From the NCBI RefSeq assembly GCF_003860125.1, contig NZ_RQYL01000014.1, positions 1 through 64,000 of the forward strand: a stretch of DNA of 64,000 nucleotides, written 5' to 3'. Source of the DNA: Fretibacterium sp. OH1220_COT-178 (GTDB lineage: Bacteria > Synergistota > Synergistia > Synergistales > Aminobacteriaceae). Of this stretch, positions 54,682-63,526 are shown piece by piece. A program made the position numbers and the translations under genes. The number at the start of each line of letters is the position of its first letter. Position 1 is the first letter of the stretch. The notes under the pieces are model-generated. The model did not search any database. It was given only the letters and a program-made list of their open reading frames with translations, and had not been told where the DNA came from.

Positions 54682-55911
54682 ATGCTCGAATTCAAAAACG
54701 TATCGAAGATCTACCAGGGCACCAGGCCCGCCGTGGAGGACGTGACCCTCACCTTCGGCGAGGGGGAGTTCATCGTCTTCATCGGCACCAGCGGCAGCGG
54801 AAAGACCACCTGCATGCGCATGATCAACCGCATGACGGAGCCGACGAGCGGGACGATCCTGCTGAACGGGGACGACGTGATGTCCATGGACGCGGTGCGG
54901 CTGCGCCGACGGATCGGCTACGTGATCCAGCAGATCGGCCTGATGCCCCACATGACCATCTACGAGAACGTCACGCTGGTCCCCGGTCTGCTGGGATGGG
55001 ACGAGGACCGCCGGCGCGCCGTGGCAAAGAGGCTCATGAGGCGCGTGGACCTGGACGAGAGCTTCCTGGAACGCTATCCGGCGGAGCTGTCGGGCGGCCA
55101 GCAGCAGCGTGTGGGCGTCATCCGCGCACTGGCCGCGGATCCGGAGATCATCCTGATGGACGAGCCCTTCGGAGCGCTCGACCCGATCACGCGCGACTCC
55201 CTCCAGCGGCTGATCAAGAAGCTCCAGAAGGAGCTGGGAAAGACCATCGTCTTCGTCACCCACGACATGGACGAGGCCCTGGCCCTGGCCGACCGCATCG
55301 TCATCATGGACGCCGGCCGCGTGGTGCAGTTCGGCACGCCGGCGGACATCCTGCAGAACCCCGCCAACGCGTTCGTGGAGGACCTCCTGGGCGAGGACCG
55401 ACTCAACGAGGCCCGCCTGGCGCTGCGCACCGTGGACGAGGTCATGGCGAAGGATCCCGTTTCGATCGCAAACGGCCGGTCCATCCGGGACGCCCTGAGG
55501 ATCATGCGGAGGAACCGCGCGGAGACGCTCTTCGTGACCGACTCGGACGGGGTGATCCAGGGCGTGGTCGACATCTTCGACATCGAGAAGGTCAGCCTGA
55601 AGCAGGCCCGCCGGGCCGGACGGGAGGGCGGCCAGCCCGACCTGATGCAGGACCGGATCGACACGATCATGAAGCCGGCCTCCTACATCGCCCGCGATAC
55701 CCTGATCCGGGACGCCCTCCACTGGATCGTCCATCTGGACCACCGCTACCTGCCGGTCGTCGACGAGGGCAACCGCCTGATCGGCGTCGTGACGCGCGCG
55801 GTTCTGGTCGAGGACCTCTACACCAACGTGTGGGGGGCGGAGGACTCGGTCCCCGAGGACACCCTCCAGACGACGGAGGAGCCCAGGGAGGGGGGGGTCT
55901 CCGATGTTTGA
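54682..55911 (+). CDS. opuCA: glycine betaine/choline ABC transporter ATP-binding protein with CBS domains
   Basis: A 409-aa OpuCA/ProV-like ATPase. Walker A GTSGSGKTT (about 35-43), QQIGLMPHMT, signature LSGGQQQRVGVIRAL, Walker B IILMDEPFGALDPI. After the ATPase domain (to about 240) come two CBS motifs (about 255-300 and 325-372), which in OpuA-type systems sense ionic strength. The residues PTSGTILLNGDDV and DADRR are typical of the group. It overlaps the permease gene by eight bases. First gene of a four-gene osmoprotectant operon. Confidence 0.92.
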   Translation: MLEFKNVSKIYQGTRPAVEDVTLTFGEGEFIVFIGTSGSGKTTCMRMINRMTEPTSGTILLNGDDVMSMDAVRLRRRIGYVIQQIGLMPHMTIYENVTLVPGLLGWDEDRRRAVAKRLMRRVDLDESFLERYPAELSGGQQQRVGVIRALAADPEIILMDEPFGALDPITRDSLQRLIKKLQKELGKTIVFVTHDMDEALALADRIVIMDAGRVVQFGTPADILQNPANAFVEDLLGEDRLNEARLALRTVDEVMAKDPVSIANGRSIRDALRIMRRNRAETLFVTDSDGVIQGVVDIFDIEKVSLKQARRAGREGGQPDLMQDRIDTIMKPASYIARDTLIRDALHWIVHLDHRYLPVVDEGNRLIGVVTRAVLVEDLYTNVWGAEDSVPEDTLQTTEEPREGGVSDV

Positions 55912-56536
55912 GTTCCTCCTGGAAAACCATTCCGCGCTGCTCTTCAAGACCTGGGAGCACCTCCTGATCTCGGGCGCCTCCCTTCTCGCCGGGACGGCGG
56001 CGGCCGTCCCGCTCGGCATCGTTCTGACGCGCTTCAGGCGCATCTCGGGGGTCGTCATCGGCCTGGTCTCCATCTTTCAGACCATCCCCTCCCTGGCCCT
56101 GCTGGCCATCATGATCCCCTTCCTGGGCGTGGGCAAGCCGCCCGCCGTCATGGCGCTGTTCGTCTACTCTCTGCTGCCCGTCGTCCGCAACACCTACCTG
56201 GGCATCGAGGGCGTGGACAGGGACGTCGTGGACGCGGCCAAGGGCATGGGCATGACGCCCCTGCAGCGGCTCCTCAAGGTCCGGCTCCCGCTGGCCGTCC
56301 CCGTGATCATGGCGGGCGTGCGCACCTCCGGCGTGTACGTCGTGGCCTGGGCCACCATCGCCTCCTATATCGGGGCCGGCGGGCTGGGCGACTTCATCTT
56401 CACGGGACTGCACAACTACATCCCCCCCATGATCGTCTGGGGGACCCTGCCCGTCACCCTCATGGCGCTGCTGACGGATTTTCTTCTCGGGCGCGTCGAG
56501 GCCGCTCTCTCGCCCCGGCTGCGCTCCCGGGCCTGA
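55904..56536 (+). CDS. opuCB: glycine betaine/choline ABC transporter permease (subunit 1)
   Basis: A 210-aa permease with about five to six helices. IFQTIPSLALLAIMIPFLG (about 51-69), LLPVVRNTYLGIEGVD and DAAKGMGMTPLQRLLKVRLPLAVPVIMAGVRTS (the EAA loop, about 111-145) define the OpuCB/YehY family. Confidence 0.92.
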   Translation: MFEFLLENHSALLFKTWEHLLISGASLLAGTAAAVPLGIVLTRFRRISGVVIGLVSIFQTIPSLALLAIMIPFLGVGKPPAVMALFVYSLLPVVRNTYLGIEGVDRDVVDAAKGMGMTPLQRLLKVRLPLAVPVIMAGVRTSGVYVVAWATIASYIGAGGLGDFIFTGLHNYIPPMIVWGTLPVTLMALLTDFLLGRVEAALSPRLRSRA

Positions 56537-56554
56537 CGAGGAAGGAGGACGAAC

Positions 56555-57511
56555 ATGGCAAGAGGAAAAAACGCGCTCTGGGCCCCCATCCTGCTGGCGG
56601 CGCTGCTGGCCGTCGCGGTCTTCCTGCCGGGGCTCGAAAGGGGCGCCTCCAAGGACGGCATTGTCATCGCGGGCGGCAACACGACCGAGCGTCAGATCCT
56701 GGCCGAGATCACGGCCCAGATGATCCGGCACCACATCCGGGACGCGAGGGTCGGTCTGGTGAACAACCTGGGGACCACCGTCCTGATCCGCCGGGCGCTC
56801 GACAACGGGGACGTCAACCTGTCCGGCGCCATGTACACCGGCACCTCCCTGACCGGGGAGCTGGGCCTGCCGATGACGACGGACCCCGCGGAGGCCATGG
56901 ACACCGTGGTTCGGGAATACGACAGACGCTACGGCGAGAAATGGTATCCCTCCTGGGGCTTCGCGAACACCTACGCCTTCATGGTGACCCGGGAGCTGGC
57001 GGACCGGGAGGGGCTGAGGACGGTCAGCGACCTGGCCCGCATCGCGCCCGGCATGAGGCTGGGGGTGGACACCTCCTGGATGGAGCGCAAGGGCGACGGC
57101 TACCAGGACTTCAGGAAAAAGTACGGATTCGACTTCAAACACGTGTTCCCCATGGAGATCGGGCTCGTCTACAGTGCCGTGCGCGCCGGGGAGATGGACG
57201 CGGTCCTGGGCTACTCCACGGACGGGCGCATCGCCACCTACGACCTGGTCCTTTTGGAGGACGACCGGCGCCTGTTCCCGCCCTACGACGCCAGCCCCGT
57301 CGCCACACGCCGGGTTCTCGAGGCATATCCGCAGCTCGATTCCATCCTCATGCGGCTTTCCGGGACGGTGGACAGCACCCGCATGCAGAGGATGAACCGC
57401 ATGGCCGACGAGGATCTGGTCGAGCCCCACACCGTGGCCCGACGTTTTCTGGAGGAGCACGGCTATTTCGAGGGCGCCGACTCGGGCTCGGTGCGAAAGG
57501 AGGCGCGGTGA
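56555..57511 (+). CDS. opuCC: glycine betaine/choline ABC transporter substrate-binding protein
   Basis: A 318-aa OsmX/OpuCC-type binding protein. An N-terminal hydrophobic segment (about 9-25) without a lipobox Cys, so it is probably secreted or membrane-anchored by the helix. GGNTTERQILAEITAQMIR (about 40-58), NLSGAMYTGTSL and a C-terminal GTVDSTRMQRMNRMAD are typical of the quaternary-amine binding fold. GAMYTGTSL has aromatic and polar ligands expected for betaine/choline. Its stop overlaps the next start (TGATG). Confidence 0.88.
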   Translation: MARGKNALWAPILLAALLAVAVFLPGLERGASKDGIVIAGGNTTERQILAEITAQMIRHHIRDARVGLVNNLGTTVLIRRALDNGDVNLSGAMYTGTSLTGELGLPMTTDPAEAMDTVVREYDRRYGEKWYPSWGFANTYAFMVTRELADREGLRTVSDLARIAPGMRLGVDTSWMERKGDGYQDFRKKYGFDFKHVFPMEIGLVYSAVRAGEMDAVLGYSTDGRIATYDLVLLEDDRRLFPPYDASPVATRRVLEAYPQLDSILMRLSGTVDSTRMQRMNRMADEDLVEPHTVARRFLEEHGYFEGADSGSVRKEAR

Positions 57512-58152
57512 TGGAGCTTCTTAGGGAGACGGCCTCCTACTACGCGATCAATGGAGGCTATGTGCTGGAGCAGTTCTGGAGGCATTTCCTGATCTCGGTC
57601 TACGGAGTCCTGTTCGCGGCCGCGCTGGCCATCCCCACGGGGTTCCTGATCGCCCGAAGGGGCCGTCTTGCCGGCTGGGTCATCGGTGCGGCGAACGTGA
57701 TCCAGACCGTCCCGTCCCTGGCCCTGATGTCCGTCCTGATGCTGGGGCTCGGCCTGGGGGTCCGCACCGTCATCGTGACCGTGCTGCTCTACTCGCTGCT
57801 GCCCATCGTCCGAAACACCTACGCGGGAATCCGCAGCATCGAGCCCCAGGTCCTGGACGCCGCCAGGGGGATGGGCATGACCGAGCTCCAGAGGATCTTC
57901 ATGGTGGAGCTCCCGCTGGCCCTGTCGGTCATCATGGCCGGGGTACGCAATGCGCTGGTGGTGGCCATCGGCGTCACGACCATCGGCACCTTCATCGGGG
58001 CCGGCGGGCTGGGCGACATCATCTCGCGCGGCGTCAACGTCGCCAACGGGAGCGCCATCATCGTCGCCGGCGCCCTGCCCACCGCCTTGATGGCCGTATG
58101 CGCGGACGTCGTTTTGGGGGTGTTGGAGCGCAGGCTGGACCCCACGCGGTAA
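57511..58152 (+). CDS. opuCD: glycine betaine/choline ABC transporter permease (subunit 2)
   Basis: A 213-aa permease paralogous to subunit 1. VIQTVPSLALMSVLMLGLGLG (about 64-84), LLPIVRNTYAGIRSIE, DAARGMGMTELQRIFMVELPLALSVIMAGVRNA (EAA loop) and TIGTFIGAGGLGDIISRG are intact. It completes the OpuCA-CB-CC-CD importer for osmoprotectants. Confidence 0.92.
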   Translation: MELLRETASYYAINGGYVLEQFWRHFLISVYGVLFAAALAIPTGFLIARRGRLAGWVIGAANVIQTVPSLALMSVLMLGLGLGVRTVIVTVLLYSLLPIVRNTYAGIRSIEPQVLDAARGMGMTELQRIFMVELPLALSVIMAGVRNALVVAIGVTTIGTFIGAGGLGDIISRGVNVANGSAIIVAGALPTALMAVCADVVLGVLERRLDPTR

Positions 58153-59179: not shown

Positions 59180-59212
59180 CGGTGAGGGGGGCTCGAAAGG
59201 CCCCCCTCACCG
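59180..59212. terminator. bidirectional hairpin terminator
   Basis: GGTGAGGGGGG (59181-59191) pairs with CCCCCCTCACC (59201-59211), plus an inner C-G pair and an outer C-G pair; ATTTTA follows on the plus strand. It lies between the end of the Cys-rich protein gene (plus) and the end of the nucleotidase-like gene (minus). Confidence 0.7.
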
Positions 59213-59217
59213 CCATT

Positions 59218-60846
59218 TTATCGGCCTTTGATCTCGATGCGTCCGTCCGTCTCCGGCGCCACCCGCCCCTCGGGAAAGGAGAGGATATAATCGAGCAGCA
59301 CGTCCAGGTCCCGCAGCTCCGTCGGCATCCTCTTCCCCTCGCCGAACACGAAGTAGCGGTCGCCGCCTCCCGCCGTCCAGGCATTGACGGCCACGGTATA
59401 CGTCTGTGCGTCGTCGACCTCCCGCCACTCCCCTTCCTTCCAAACGGAAAGGGACCGAAGCCGCGTTCCCCAGGAACCCAGCTTGCCCTCGGCGTCGAAA
59501 AGCGTCGGCTTTCCCTGGAGATCGTAGACGACCTTCAGTCCGGAGACCTGGAGGAACCCTCCGTCCGGAACGCGAAAGGCAGGATCGTAATTCTCGTCCT
59601 CTCGCATCAGAGCGGACGCGGAGAGCTCCATGACCTGACGGAGCTGAGCCCCCGTCAGCGAGACGATGTCGATGGTGTTTCCGAAGGGGAAGATATCGGC
59701 CAGCCACTTGATGGGAATCTCTCCGGCGGGGAACACCCGGTCCCCCCTCAGCGCGCCGCTGTTGACGAGCCCGACATCCGTTCCGAACTTCCAGCGCAGC
59801 GAGTCCGCCGCGAAGTTCCCCAAGGGCACCTCCTGAATACGCAAGGTCCTTTTGCGTCCGTCCAGGGGCTTTTCAAAGAAGCCCGCCGCCCTCTCCATCT
59901 TGCTGTTGAGCTTCTCCTCGTACTCCGAGGCGATCTTCATGACGGCGGTGTCCACCGGGACCTTGGGGGTGACGTTCAAGAGCCGCCAGGACGTCTGATC
60001 CCAAAGCAGCCTGCCGTTCTTTGTGACCAGAACGAGTTTCCCCACGAACTTCCCCATGGCGCCCCCCCAGGCCAGGACGGTCGGCCAATCGTCCGGGCCG
60101 CGGACGTAGTGCAGCTGCACCTCCTCCCTTTGGGACACCCCGCGGCCGATGATCGCATGGATTCCCGCGACCGACTCCGCCAGACGACGGTTCTCCCCCT
60201 CGCTGAGGTTGCTGAGCATCACGATGATATCCGCCCCTTGACGGTGCAGGTCGGCGACCATCTCGCGGGCGATCTCCGCCGTGTCGGGCAGAACCGTCAG
60301 CTCGTCGGCCCTCTTCGTCACGGAGAAGATCCAGGTGGAGAGCATCGCGAAGAAGCCGACCTTCATCTCGCCCGCGGGCACAATGACGTTTCGCACCAGG
60401 CGCTGCCGCATCTCGGGATCCGATACCGAGACGTTCGAGAGGACCATGGGGAAGTCGGCGTGGGCCAGCGCCCCCTTCAGATGGTCCCATCCGTAGTCGA
60501 ACTCGCGCTTGCCGATCATGCCCACCTGAACTCCCGCGGCCGACAGCGCGGAGAACTCGGGAAGGCCGCCAAAATAACGCCATAGGGGGCCGTTGACGGC
60601 CTCTCCGGTCTGGACGAAAATGGCGTTCGGGTCCTGGGAGCGTTCCTGGCGGACGACCCCGGAGACGTGGCTCAGCCCCCCGATGCGCACCGAGGTCTTG
60701 TTCAGCTTTTCCGAGATCGGAAGAAGCTGGCTTTTCAGATGGCTGATGGAAAGGATCGTCACCTTCCCGTCCCGAGCGCATGCCGGGCAGGCATGGAGAA
60801 GCAAAATCCCGCACAGCAGGAAGAACCCGATCGTCCGTCGTCTCAA
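59218..60846 (-). CDS. exported 5'-nucleotidase-family protein with degenerate metallophosphatase domain
   Basis: A 542-aa protein with a signal peptide (residues 1-25, ending ACPACA), built like UshA-type 5'-nucleotidases: an N-terminal calcineurin-like domain (about 28-300) and a C-terminal nucleotide-specificity domain (about 320-540). The C-terminal half looks normal: GNFAADSLRW, GLVNSGALRGD, FPFGNT and NAWTAGGGDRYFVF. In the N-terminal half every metal-ligand motif is altered: TNDxH is ISHLK, AGD is TGE, GNHEFD is GKREFD, LSH is LSN and GHTH is GRGVS. It should not hydrolyse phosphates but could bind nucleotides in the periplasm. TTG start, one base after the upstream c-di-GMP gene stop. 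Confidence 0.85.
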   Translation of the reverse strand: MRRRTIGFFLLCGILLLHACPACARDGKVTILSISHLKSQLLPISEKLNKTSVRIGGLSHVSGVVRQERSQDPNAIFVQTGEAVNGPLWRYFGGLPEFSALSAAGVQVGMIGKREFDYGWDHLKGALAHADFPMVLSNVSVSDPEMRQRLVRNVIVPAGEMKVGFFAMLSTWIFSVTKRADELTVLPDTAEIAREMVADLHRQGADIIVMLSNLSEGENRRLAESVAGIHAIIGRGVSQREEVQLHYVRGPDDWPTVLAWGGAMGKFVGKLVLVTKNGRLLWDQTSWRLLNVTPKVPVDTAVMKIASEYEEKLNSKMERAAGFFEKPLDGRKRTLRIQEVPLGNFAADSLRWKFGTDVGLVNSGALRGDRVFPAGEIPIKWLADIFPFGNTIDIVSLTGAQLRQVMELSASALMREDENYDPAFRVPDGGFLQVSGLKVVYDLQGKPTLFDAEGKLGSWGTRLRSLSVWKEGEWREVDDAQTYTVAVNAWTAGGGDRYFVFGEGKRMPTELRDLDVLLDYILSFPEGRVAPETDGRIEIKGR

Positions 60847-60847
60847 G

Positions 60848-63526
60848 TTACGTCAACCTCTCCTTCTGTATCAATCTCTCGGCCTCCGCCCAGGCCATCG
60901 GTTTGGAGAAATAGTAGCCCTGAGCCTTGCCGCACCCCGCCTCGCCCAGCCAGGAGAGCTGCTCCTCCGTCTCGACCCCCTCGGCGATGGTGTCCAGGTT
61001 CAGGACGTTGGCCATGTCGATGATGGTGCGCAGCATCCTGGCGTCCTTCTCGGAGTCGAACACGTGGCGGACGAACGCCATATCCAGCTTGATGCAGTCG
61101 AGCGGCAGGGAGTGGATGTATTGAAGCGACGAGTACCCCGTTCCGAAATCGTCCAGAAAGATCCGGATTCCCATCCCCCGCAGCTTGTCGAGCGTGGCGC
61201 TGACCCCCTTGAGGTTGTCGATCAGGACGCTCTCGGTCACCTCGATGACGAAACAGGAGGGGTCCACATGCGCCTCCTCCAGGTAGCTCCGGATGAGGTC
61301 CGCCGCATAGGGCTTCTGCAAGAGGTTGGAGGACCCGTTGGCGGAGAAGTAGAGGGTACTGGAGGATTTTCGGATGGCCTCCAGGGCCCGGCGCATCATA
61401 CAGCGGTCGATCTCGCCGATCAGGCCCATGCGCTCGGCATAGGGGACGAACTTCGAGGGCGGCAGGAAGCCCTTGGTGGGGTGCATCCAGCGCACCAGGG
61501 TCTCGAATCCGCTCAATCGCCGCTCCTTGATGGAGTAGACGGGCTGGAAATAGGGGACGAACTCGTCGTTCCCTATGGCCGCATGGATCTCCGCCCTCAT
61601 GCTGAGCACGGAGGACGAGAACAGAACCTCCTCCTGAACGTCATGCCCGTCGAAGAAGACGACGGCGCCGAGGCCGGACTTCTTCGCCTGCTTCAGGGCA
61701 TTCGTGGCCTTCTCGATGATCACCGAGGGGGAGCTGCAGGCCGCGACATCCGGCAGGACCCCGATGCTCGCGCTCGGGTAGACCGTCCCCTCGCCCACCT
61801 CGCAGGGAACGCTGATCACATCCCGAATTTCCTCCAGAAGCCGGTTCAGCCTCTCCTTTTTCAGAGCGTCGTCCTGATCCTGAATCAAAATGGCGAACTC
61901 GTCGCCGCCCGTTCGGTAGGCCGTGCCCCTGTCCCCGAGAGTGGACTTGATCCGTTCGGCGATCATCACCAGGATCCTGTCCCCATTGACGTTGCCGACC
62001 TCGGCGTTGATGCTCTTGAAGTGGTCCATGTTGACGAGCGCCAGGTTCGACAGGGAGGGATCGCACGATTCGGCCTCCTTGAGGATGCAGCCCAGGGTAT
62101 CGACGAGCGACATGCGGTTGGGAAGCCCCGTGAGATCGTCGTAGTAAAGCTTCCAGGCGAGACGGGTCTCCAGACGCTTGCGCTCCCGGAGGTCGCGCGC
62201 AAGGAAGAGGACCAGCTTGCGCTTACCGAAGGTGATGGCACGCTGATGGATCTCGACGGGCACCTCCGTGCCGTCGCTGCAGCACAGAAAGGCCTCATAG
62301 ACGGCCTGATCCTCGTTGGCCCGGATGGGCGTATCCACCCCCGACTTGCGGATCAGGGCGGTGATCGGGATTCCCTCGTGGTCCTGGAAGGTCTCCGAAA
62401 GCCCCAGGATGCGCTGGGCCTCCGAGTTCACCAGGGCGACCTTGCCGGACAGGTTGCAGAGGATCATGGCGTCAGGGATGTTCATGAGCAGATGTTCCAG
62501 GGTCCCGAACACCACGTTGAAGGATCGGGAGAGGTCGGAGATCTCGTCCGATCGGGTCACGGGGACCCGCAGGGACAGCCGGAGCTCGCTGGTGATCGTG
62601 TCGGCGACCTCTCGGAGCTTTTCCAGGCGCTTCAGCACCAGCCGCGAGAGAAGCTCGGTCACGACCACGGCGAGGACGACCCCGTTCAGAAATATCCAGA
62701 AGTAGGAGCTGTAAATCGCTTTTTTGCCCTCGTTATAGATATGGCGCGGAGTGCGGCACGCCACCGCGTAGGGCGATCCCGCTCCGAGGACCTCGCCGCG
62801 CATCTGCCAGACGGAGGCCTTGCCGTCCGCCTCCTGCTCTATGACGACCTTGCCGCTCCAACGGGCCGGATACTCCTGTCCCGGAACGGAGACGAACTCG
62901 CAGGGAATGCCCAGGTTCTCCGAGATCTCCTGCAATTTTTTGGAAAAATCGATCCCCGCCACGACCAGGCCGCGCGAGGGGCCGCTCCAGTTGGTCATCA
63001 GAATGGGGTTGGCGCCGAACAGATAAACGCTCTCCCCCAGCTTCAGCATGTGGGGGGAGGCGTCCTGATCGTTGGAATAATCCTTTGTCCCCTCGGAGGC
63101 CGCAAGTCGGGCACCGATGCTCCGAAGCTGCTCCAGCATCGCCTCGGACAGGGGAATTTCGCCTCCGAGCTCGTTGACCGTGTAGCCCGTCACGGTGTTC
63201 ATGTCCCTGTCCAGGACCGCCAGGAAGTCGACGTCCAAGGCCCGCAGGCTCGTACCCGTCAACAGCTCGTCGAAACGGGAGGGGTCCTTCGTCTCCATGA
63301 AGGCGTACATGGCGTCCCAGGCCCCCCAGTCGGAGACATAGCCGACCAGTCGATTGACCTCGTCGTCGATATACCCCTGCAGGAGGAACATGTCCTGCTC
63401 GAAAAAGCGGCGTTCCACGGTTTCGAATGCCTTTACGGTCCTGTAGTTCGTGGTGAAGCTCATGACCAGGGAGAGCCCCAGAAGGGTCCCCACGATGATC
63501 CGAAAGGCTTTTTTCTGCAATCTCAT
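60848..63526 (-). CDS. membrane c-di-GMP protein: CHASE4-HAMP-PAS-GGDEF-EAL
   Basis: An 892-aa protein. First helix about 9-28; a CHASE4 sensor (about 40-260) with YVSDWGAWDAMYAF; second helix about 272-295; HAMP about 296-345; PAS about 350-450; GGDEF domain about 460-620; EAL domain about 640-890. The GGDEF signature is present as TGGDEFAIL, but the usual metal-binding Asp of DxDxFK is Asn (VNMDHFKSIN). The EAL domain keeps FETLVRW, EVTES, LDDFGTGYSS, IKLDMAF, AEGVE and AQGYYFSKP. It is probably a phosphodiesterase with a regulatory GGDEF domain. It is followed after one base by a nucleotidase-like exported protein. Confidence 0.9.
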   Translation of the reverse strand: MRLQKKAFRIIVGTLLGLSLVMSFTTNYRTVKAFETVERRFFEQDMFLLQGYIDDEVNRLVGYVSDWGAWDAMYAFMETKDPSRFDELLTGTSLRALDVDFLAVLDRDMNTVTGYTVNELGGEIPLSEAMLEQLRSIGARLAASEGTKDYSNDQDASPHMLKLGESVYLFGANPILMTNWSGPSRGLVVAGIDFSKKLQEISENLGIPCEFVSVPGQEYPARWSGKVVIEQEADGKASVWQMRGEVLGAGSPYAVACRTPRHIYNEGKKAIYSSYFWIFLNGVVLAVVVTELLSRLVLKRLEKLREVADTITSELRLSLRVPVTRSDEISDLSRSFNVVFGTLEHLLMNIPDAMILCNLSGKVALVNSEAQRILGLSETFQDHEGIPITALIRKSGVDTPIRANEDQAVYEAFLCCSDGTEVPVEIHQRAITFGKRKLVLFLARDLRERKRLETRLAWKLYYDDLTGLPNRMSLVDTLGCILKEAESCDPSLSNLALVNMDHFKSINAEVGNVNGDRILVMIAERIKSTLGDRGTAYRTGGDEFAILIQDQDDALKKERLNRLLEEIRDVISVPCEVGEGTVYPSASIGVLPDVAACSSPSVIIEKATNALKQAKKSGLGAVVFFDGHDVQEEVLFSSSVLSMRAEIHAAIGNDEFVPYFQPVYSIKERRLSGFETLVRWMHPTKGFLPPSKFVPYAERMGLIGEIDRCMMRRALEAIRKSSSTLYFSANGSSNLLQKPYAADLIRSYLEEAHVDPSCFVIEVTESVLIDNLKGVSATLDKLRGMGIRIFLDDFGTGYSSLQYIHSLPLDCIKLDMAFVRHVFDSEKDARMLRTIIDMANVLNLDTIAEGVETEEQLSWLGEAGCGKAQGYYFSKPMAWAEAERLIQKERLT

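Follow-up and report, generated by a model that had tools for sequence, protein, structure and literature searches.

In the stretch of DNA analysed here (the window: 64,000 nucleotides of Fretibacterium sp. OH1220_COT-178), a membrane CHASE4-GGDEF-EAL protein is encoded directly upstream of an exported relative of the 5'-nucleotidases that has lost its catalytic centre, and we hold, at a probability of roughly 0.66, that the two proteins constitute one signalling unit which follows the logic of NspS-MbaA and would sense a nucleoside or nucleotide. In NspS-MbaA, known from Vibrio cholerae and Sinorhizobium meliloti, a periplasmic binding protein switches a membrane GGDEF-EAL enzyme and the two genes overlap (PMC8967002, PMC9993111). 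The near-overlapping inheritance of the window genes, the loss of the catalytic centre and the preservation of the pocket suggest that a dead enzyme has been turned into the outside half of a two-protein sensor.

Both genes are read from the minus strand (Table 1). The TAA stop codon of the CHASE4 gene and the TTG start codon of the nucleotidase-like gene are one base, a C, apart (...GAGGTTGACG TAA C TTG AGA...), exactly as a sequence-only reading of the same DNA had stated. The hairpin past the nucleotidase stop is only suggestive as a transcription end, because its T-run on the minus strand is short. No RNA families were found over the gene pair, and a sigma-70 promoter scan gave scores no better than those of shuffled sequences. 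As for the surroundings, translations read as an osmoprotectant-like (OpuC/glycine-betaine type) ABC operon occupy 54682-58152 on the plus strand, in the order ATPase with a CBS-like C-terminus, permease, binding protein and second permease. LivF/LivG/LivM/LivH-like branched-chain amino acid ABC genes, also assigned by reading of translations, lie just beyond the window end (L210, 3780-7502), 253 bp upstream of the CHASE4 gene and in the same orientation.

Table 1. Features of the gene pair in the window, with the two dead paralogs found elsewhere in the same genome
Feature	Position	Strand	Basis
CHASE4-HAMP-PAS-GGDEF-EAL membrane protein, 892 aa	60848..63526	-	ORF, Pfam domains, transmembrane segments
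CHASE4 domain (periplasmic), aa 53-210	62897..63370	-	PF05228; sole CHASE4 protein in genome
GGDEF domain, RTGGDEF motif intact	61673..62146	-	Pfam, motif check
EAL domain, catalytic residues E, N, E, DD, K, E, Q present	60899..61591	-	Pfam, residue check
Exported pseudo-5'-nucleotidase, 542 aa, TTG start	59218..60846	-	ORF, alignments, AlphaFold fold; export predicted
Signal sequence, about aa 1-25	60772..60846	-	Hydrophobic stretch and ..ACA/RDG.. junction; putative cleavage site
Ex-catalytic (metallophosphatase) domain, every metal-ligand position substituted	59962..60771	-	Alignment; PF00149 without match
C-terminal domain, predicted to bind nucleosides; R336, E339, N362, R367, F388, W490, D496 retained	59344..59859	-	PF02872, pocket table, CD73 alignment
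14-pair hairpin directly past nucleotidase stop, probable transcription end (suggestive)	59180..59212	.	
Two unlinked dead 5'-nucleotidases, same genome	L034 6727-8373 (contig C38); L035 6804-8438 (contig C8)		

The membrane protein carries CHASE4, HAMP, PAS, GGDEF and EAL domains by Pfam, and its transmembrane segments (about aa 7-26 and 270-298) enclose the CHASE4 domain, which is therefore periplasmic. The sequence-only reading had named CHASE4, GGDEF and EAL and had placed CHASE4 in the periplasm, all of which stands; HAMP, PAS and the intactness of GGDEF had gone unmentioned. The EAL active site is complete in all nine paired proteins (ExLxR, N, E, DDFG(T)GYS, K, E, Q), and the GGDEF motif, RTGGDEF in the window protein, is intact in eight of the nine, the remaining one (G033) having SGDEF. 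Since all EAL residues are present and GGDEF is intact, the window protein probably works as a phosphodiesterase and could double as a cyclase, which would make it bifunctional, so the c-di-GMP output could go either way. Genome-wide, EAL domains occur in three proteins, GGDEF in nine and CHASE4 in this one only, alongside two weak PilZ matches.

The downstream product begins with an N-terminal hydrophobic signal sequence and is predicted to be exported, in line with the sequence-only reading, and it aligns to 5'-nucleotidases over its full length. Among its Pfam matches solely the 5'-nucleotidase C-terminal domain PF02872 passes the cut-off (E 3e-34), and PF00149 gives no match. In an alignment with 40 homologs from the same order, eight of the nine metal and catalytic residues (D, H, D, N, H, H, H, H) proved to be gone, their places being taken by H36, K38, E82, K113, R114, N213, V237 and Q239; D117, the Asp of the catalytic dyad, is the sole one retained. 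The motifs of the dinuclear metal ligands and the catalytic His (DxH, GD, GNHE, H, GHxH) are absent from the window protein. The label pseudo-nucleotidase, given on first reading, is therefore right. The hydrolytic mechanism of UshA and CD73 is well established, and with the metal and catalytic set replaced and only the dyad Asp left, hydrolysis by the window protein through this mechanism is very unlikely.

The proposal of a receptor pair had been made to depend on conserved pairing of the two families, and such pairing is found: among 188 genomes of the phylum, nine, from six genera and two families, carry the genes side by side, so the objection that no conserved pairing exists fails. When both proteins were compared by tblastn with 40 nucleotidase loci from the order, the CHASE4 protein was found in exactly eight loci besides the window (L036-L043), always immediately upstream of the nucleotidase and on the same strand. 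The genes overlap by 4 bases in seven of the nine pairs, the window has its 1-base gap, and the ninth pair (G033) has two nucleotidase copies downstream. The adjacency is seen again, at identities as low as about 40%, in eight genomes other than this one and is therefore more than chance. Flanking genes are unrelated among the pairs except within one genus, other flank matches being weak, so that the two-gene adjacency is strict in about seven different gene contexts; comparison of the flanks of the paired loci revealed no third conserved gene. Around the unlinked nucleotidases no GGDEF/EAL gene was found in any of 31 loci, and the association of the two families gives a Fisher value of 4e-9 when relatedness is ignored. 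Beyond the phylum, the matches listed are generic 5'-nucleotidases without exception, at 29% identity or less; none of them has an EAL neighbour, and four weak GGDEF matches lie several kb away. In G033 the two dead nucleotidases stand in tandem behind the CHASE4 gene (L037, 7182-10700); an apparent frameshift in the first of these copies was rejected, as it is an N-run in the record and not a mutation.

In the mechanism that we propose, the pseudo-nucleotidase would be exported to the periplasm and folded as a complete two-domain 5'-nucleotidase incapable of hydrolysis. Its pocket would most likely bind a nucleoside or nucleotide, the ligand would make the protein change between an open and a closed form, as UshA and CD73 do, and one of these forms would engage the partner's CHASE4 domain in the periplasm. 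The movement would then travel via the second transmembrane helix, HAMP and PAS to the GGDEF/EAL output, expected to be chiefly c-di-GMP breakdown by the EAL domain, whose residues are present.

The AlphaFold model of the window nucleotidase (pLDDT 90.6, pTM 0.86) reproduces in full the two-domain fold seen in Thermus 5'-nucleotidase, CD73 and UshA; structure matches include 2z1a, CD73, NadN and UshA (E down to 4e-51, TM 0.55-0.77), and closed CD73 forms mostly outscore open ones (TM about 0.7 vs about 0.6). R336, N362, R367, F388, W490 and D496 of the window protein correspond to R354, N390, R395, F417, F500 and D506 of CD73. The equivalents of CD73 R354, E357, N390, R395 and D506 are invariant in all ten paired dead copies, and the two stacking positions are aromatic in the paired copies save for one His (position 388) in a single copy. 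In UshA and CpdB the C-domain holds the nucleoside through an aromatic sandwich (PMC7922932). The nucleoside pocket is thus, as far as alignment and model can tell, retained in the window protein though catalysis is lost.

The main rival to a model of the NspS-MbaA type is that the pseudo-nucleotidase restrains the CHASE4 protein from the periplasm, or relays stress to it, in the manner of YfiR, responding to a cue other than a nucleoside (envelope stress, redox or metal), with the pocket being structural. In YfiBNR, a membrane c-di-GMP enzyme is known to be regulated from the periplasm with no small-molecule binding protein involved (PMC2837407, PMC3375315). Metal site 1 is largely preserved in six of the ten paired copies, which could thereby sense a metal, and the conserved positions peculiar to the paired clade fall mostly within the ex-catalytic domain. 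However, the contacts that CD73 makes to base, ribose and phosphate are retained in every paired copy, while several are missing from more distant relatives, and the partner has a nucleotidase fold and not that of YfiR. We regard this rival as unlikely.

Alternatively, the two genes may merely be co-expressed, the pseudo-nucleotidase acting alone (in nucleotide scavenging or buffering, or in adhesion) and CHASE4 sensing its own ligand, as CHASE4 domains elsewhere are described as doing (PMC13277305). Against a signalling unit and in favour of mere co-expression stand four close CHASE4 paralogs without a nucleotidase neighbour, found when the 188 genomes were searched with the CHASE4 half and all of one genus (g8: G037 twice, G038 and G034), and two dead nucleotidases without a CHASE4 neighbour in the genome of the window itself; many distant CHASE4 proteins in that search also have no nucleotidase neighbour. 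The two dead paralogs are the only dead copies that have no CHASE4 neighbour; they are nested in the dead clade and therefore derive from it, and in both of them the D506 equivalent is changed. Together with the window copy they make up all PF02872 proteins of this genome, which is therefore without a catalytically intact member. The copy on contig C8 sits behind a PF07670 "nucleoside recognition" membrane protein.

The genome G037, in which a paired CHASE4 copy coexists with copies lacking a nucleotidase neighbour, serves as an internal control. Its three CHASE4-GGDEF-EAL paralogs lie within about 14 kb (L038 5097-17503, L110 1666-7234), with a nucleotidase only at the first and receiver-like proteins in between. 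Of 34 periplasmic positions that are invariant in the other eight paired CHASE4 proteins, 2 are changed in the paired G037 copy, 5 in type b and 6-9 in type c, while 9-11 of 127 such cytoplasmic positions are changed in all copies. The periplasmic excess has p values of 0.006 and 0.01 for two type c copies and 0.11 for the third and is not significant for type b; the type c copies are one lineage and therefore count as one observation. Since the unpaired paralogs have changed more in the periplasm and equally in the cytoplasm, the comparison suggests that the nucleotidase may be one reason for the constraint on the periplasmic domain. This greater change where the nucleotidase is not adjoining, the strict adjacency in about seven contexts and the apparent joint transfer described below argue against mere co-expression, which we consider quite unlikely.

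Metal site 2 is gone in all ten CHASE4-linked nucleotidases (His215 replaced by R, N or D; His238 by S, L or V), whereas the unlinked nucleotidases outside this genome are catalytically intact in 29 of 29 cases where the record covers the sites, in a survey of the stronger matches (weaker ones being mostly under 30% identity). In the window subgroup metal site 1 is also lost or broken, and the copies of the window, G039 and G033 have no complete metal site at all. In the six copies of L038-L043 most or all of the site 1 D, H, D and distal H survive along with the NH of the catalytic loop. This survival would agree with a partner that is still an enzyme, its relatives working with a single-metal site to make or destroy the CHASE4 ligand. 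The copies without any complete metal site are nevertheless paired, site 2 is lost throughout and five of these six copies have N or H in place of the catalytic Asp, all of which makes a surviving enzyme highly improbable. We give about even odds to the fuller evolutionary account, in which stepwise loss of catalysis, at site 2 and then at site 1, produced a dedicated periplasmic nucleoside or nucleotide receptor docking on CHASE4 to set c-di-GMP levels.

The dead nucleotidases form one clade of single origin (SH-aLRT 99). The main groups in the tree of the CHASE4 partners match those of the nucleotidase tree, with a distance correlation of 0.96; correlated trees also arise from shared ancestry alone. 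The pair of G019, which belongs to the other family, falls into one and the same subgroup in either tree; joint movement of the two genes would give this pattern, and the pair was thus apparently transferred as a unit. Because catalytic loss happened once on the tree, its association with pairing counts, on this phylogeny, as one event and not as many independent ones; the event has been long maintained, given that identity between the pairs has fallen to 35-50%. Between the closest species pair dN/dS is 0.19 for the nucleotidase and 0.15 for the CHASE4 protein, so neither gene is decaying, and the dead nucleotidases appear from these ratios to be under purifying selection. The idea of a decaying gene that lies beside a signalling gene by chance, to which the lost catalytic residues might point, is refuted by this dN/dS value, the full-length open frame, the conserved pocket and the recurrence in nine genomes.

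In genus g3 (L046, L047 and L051), an intact nucleotidase lies directly behind a nucleoside-type ABC operon, which by Pfam on L046 consists of a Bmp/PnrA binding protein, two permeases and an ATPase. Such an operon beside the intact relatives fits a nucleoside or nucleotide role for the family.

If the signalling unit is real, it shows how a scavenging enzyme becomes a signalling subunit, with intermediates still alive in the six copies that have lost site 2 and kept most of site 1. In addition, it points to a specific class of candidate ligands for a CHASE4 sensor and links extracellular nucleotides, sensed through a dead enzyme, to c-di-GMP. The sequence-only reading had called this a new kind of receptor pair, which is too strong, because a periplasmic binding protein and a membrane GGDEF-EAL enzyme encoded by overlapping genes are known from NspS-MbaA, and the general kind, a periplasmic partner with a membrane c-di-GMP enzyme, is already known. 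What is new is the use of a dead 5'-nucleotidase as the binding protein and of CHASE4 as the sensor; neither a pseudo-5'-nucleotidase/CHASE4 pair nor any protein partner for CHASE4 was found in a search of open-access literature.

Among known systems, the purine sensor domains of bacterial receptors resemble the proposed pair in coupling purine sensing to second-messenger turnover and differ from it in that, according to the abstract of the report, the receptor's own domain binds the purine without a nucleotidase-derived co-receptor (PMC11245519). The CHASE4 systems PA0847/PA14_53310 and PA2072/PA14_37690 likewise place a CHASE4 sensor on a c-di-GMP enzyme but are described as binding heme or probably copper directly, and the abstract of that report mentions no periplasmic partner, unlike the window pair (PMC13277305). 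YfiBNR (TpbB) of Pseudomonas aeruginosa also puts a membrane c-di-GMP enzyme under the control of a periplasmic protein (PMC2837407, PMC3375315), as would be the case here, and YfiR-YfiN demonstrates that such a partner can do without binding a small molecule (PMC2837407). YfiR, however, is a different and smaller repressor, YfiN is a cyclase and YfiB is a third, outer-membrane part; with a nucleotidase fold in the partner, no YfiR-like repressor or YfiB lipoprotein was found adjoining the pair in its flanks. With the 5'-nucleotidases (UshA, CD73/NT5E, Thermus 2z1a, CpdB) the window protein shares the two-domain fold, the pocket residues of the C-domain and the secretion signal, but all its metal ligands and the catalytic His are replaced. 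NspS-MbaA differs in that its binding protein NspS, whose gene lies upstream, is a polyamine solute-binding protein of the PotD type, whereas the window partner is a dead 5'-nucleotidase fold encoded downstream, with CHASE4 as the sensor domain and no PotD fold found. Both, however, rely on an inner-membrane GGDEF-EAL enzyme whose two transmembrane helices flank a periplasmic domain, and both are encoded by adjacent, coupled and usually overlapping genes, here in nine genomes with a 4 bp overlap in seven. In NspS-MbaA ligand binding switches the cyclase/phosphodiesterase output, and by analogy the same is proposed for the window pair.
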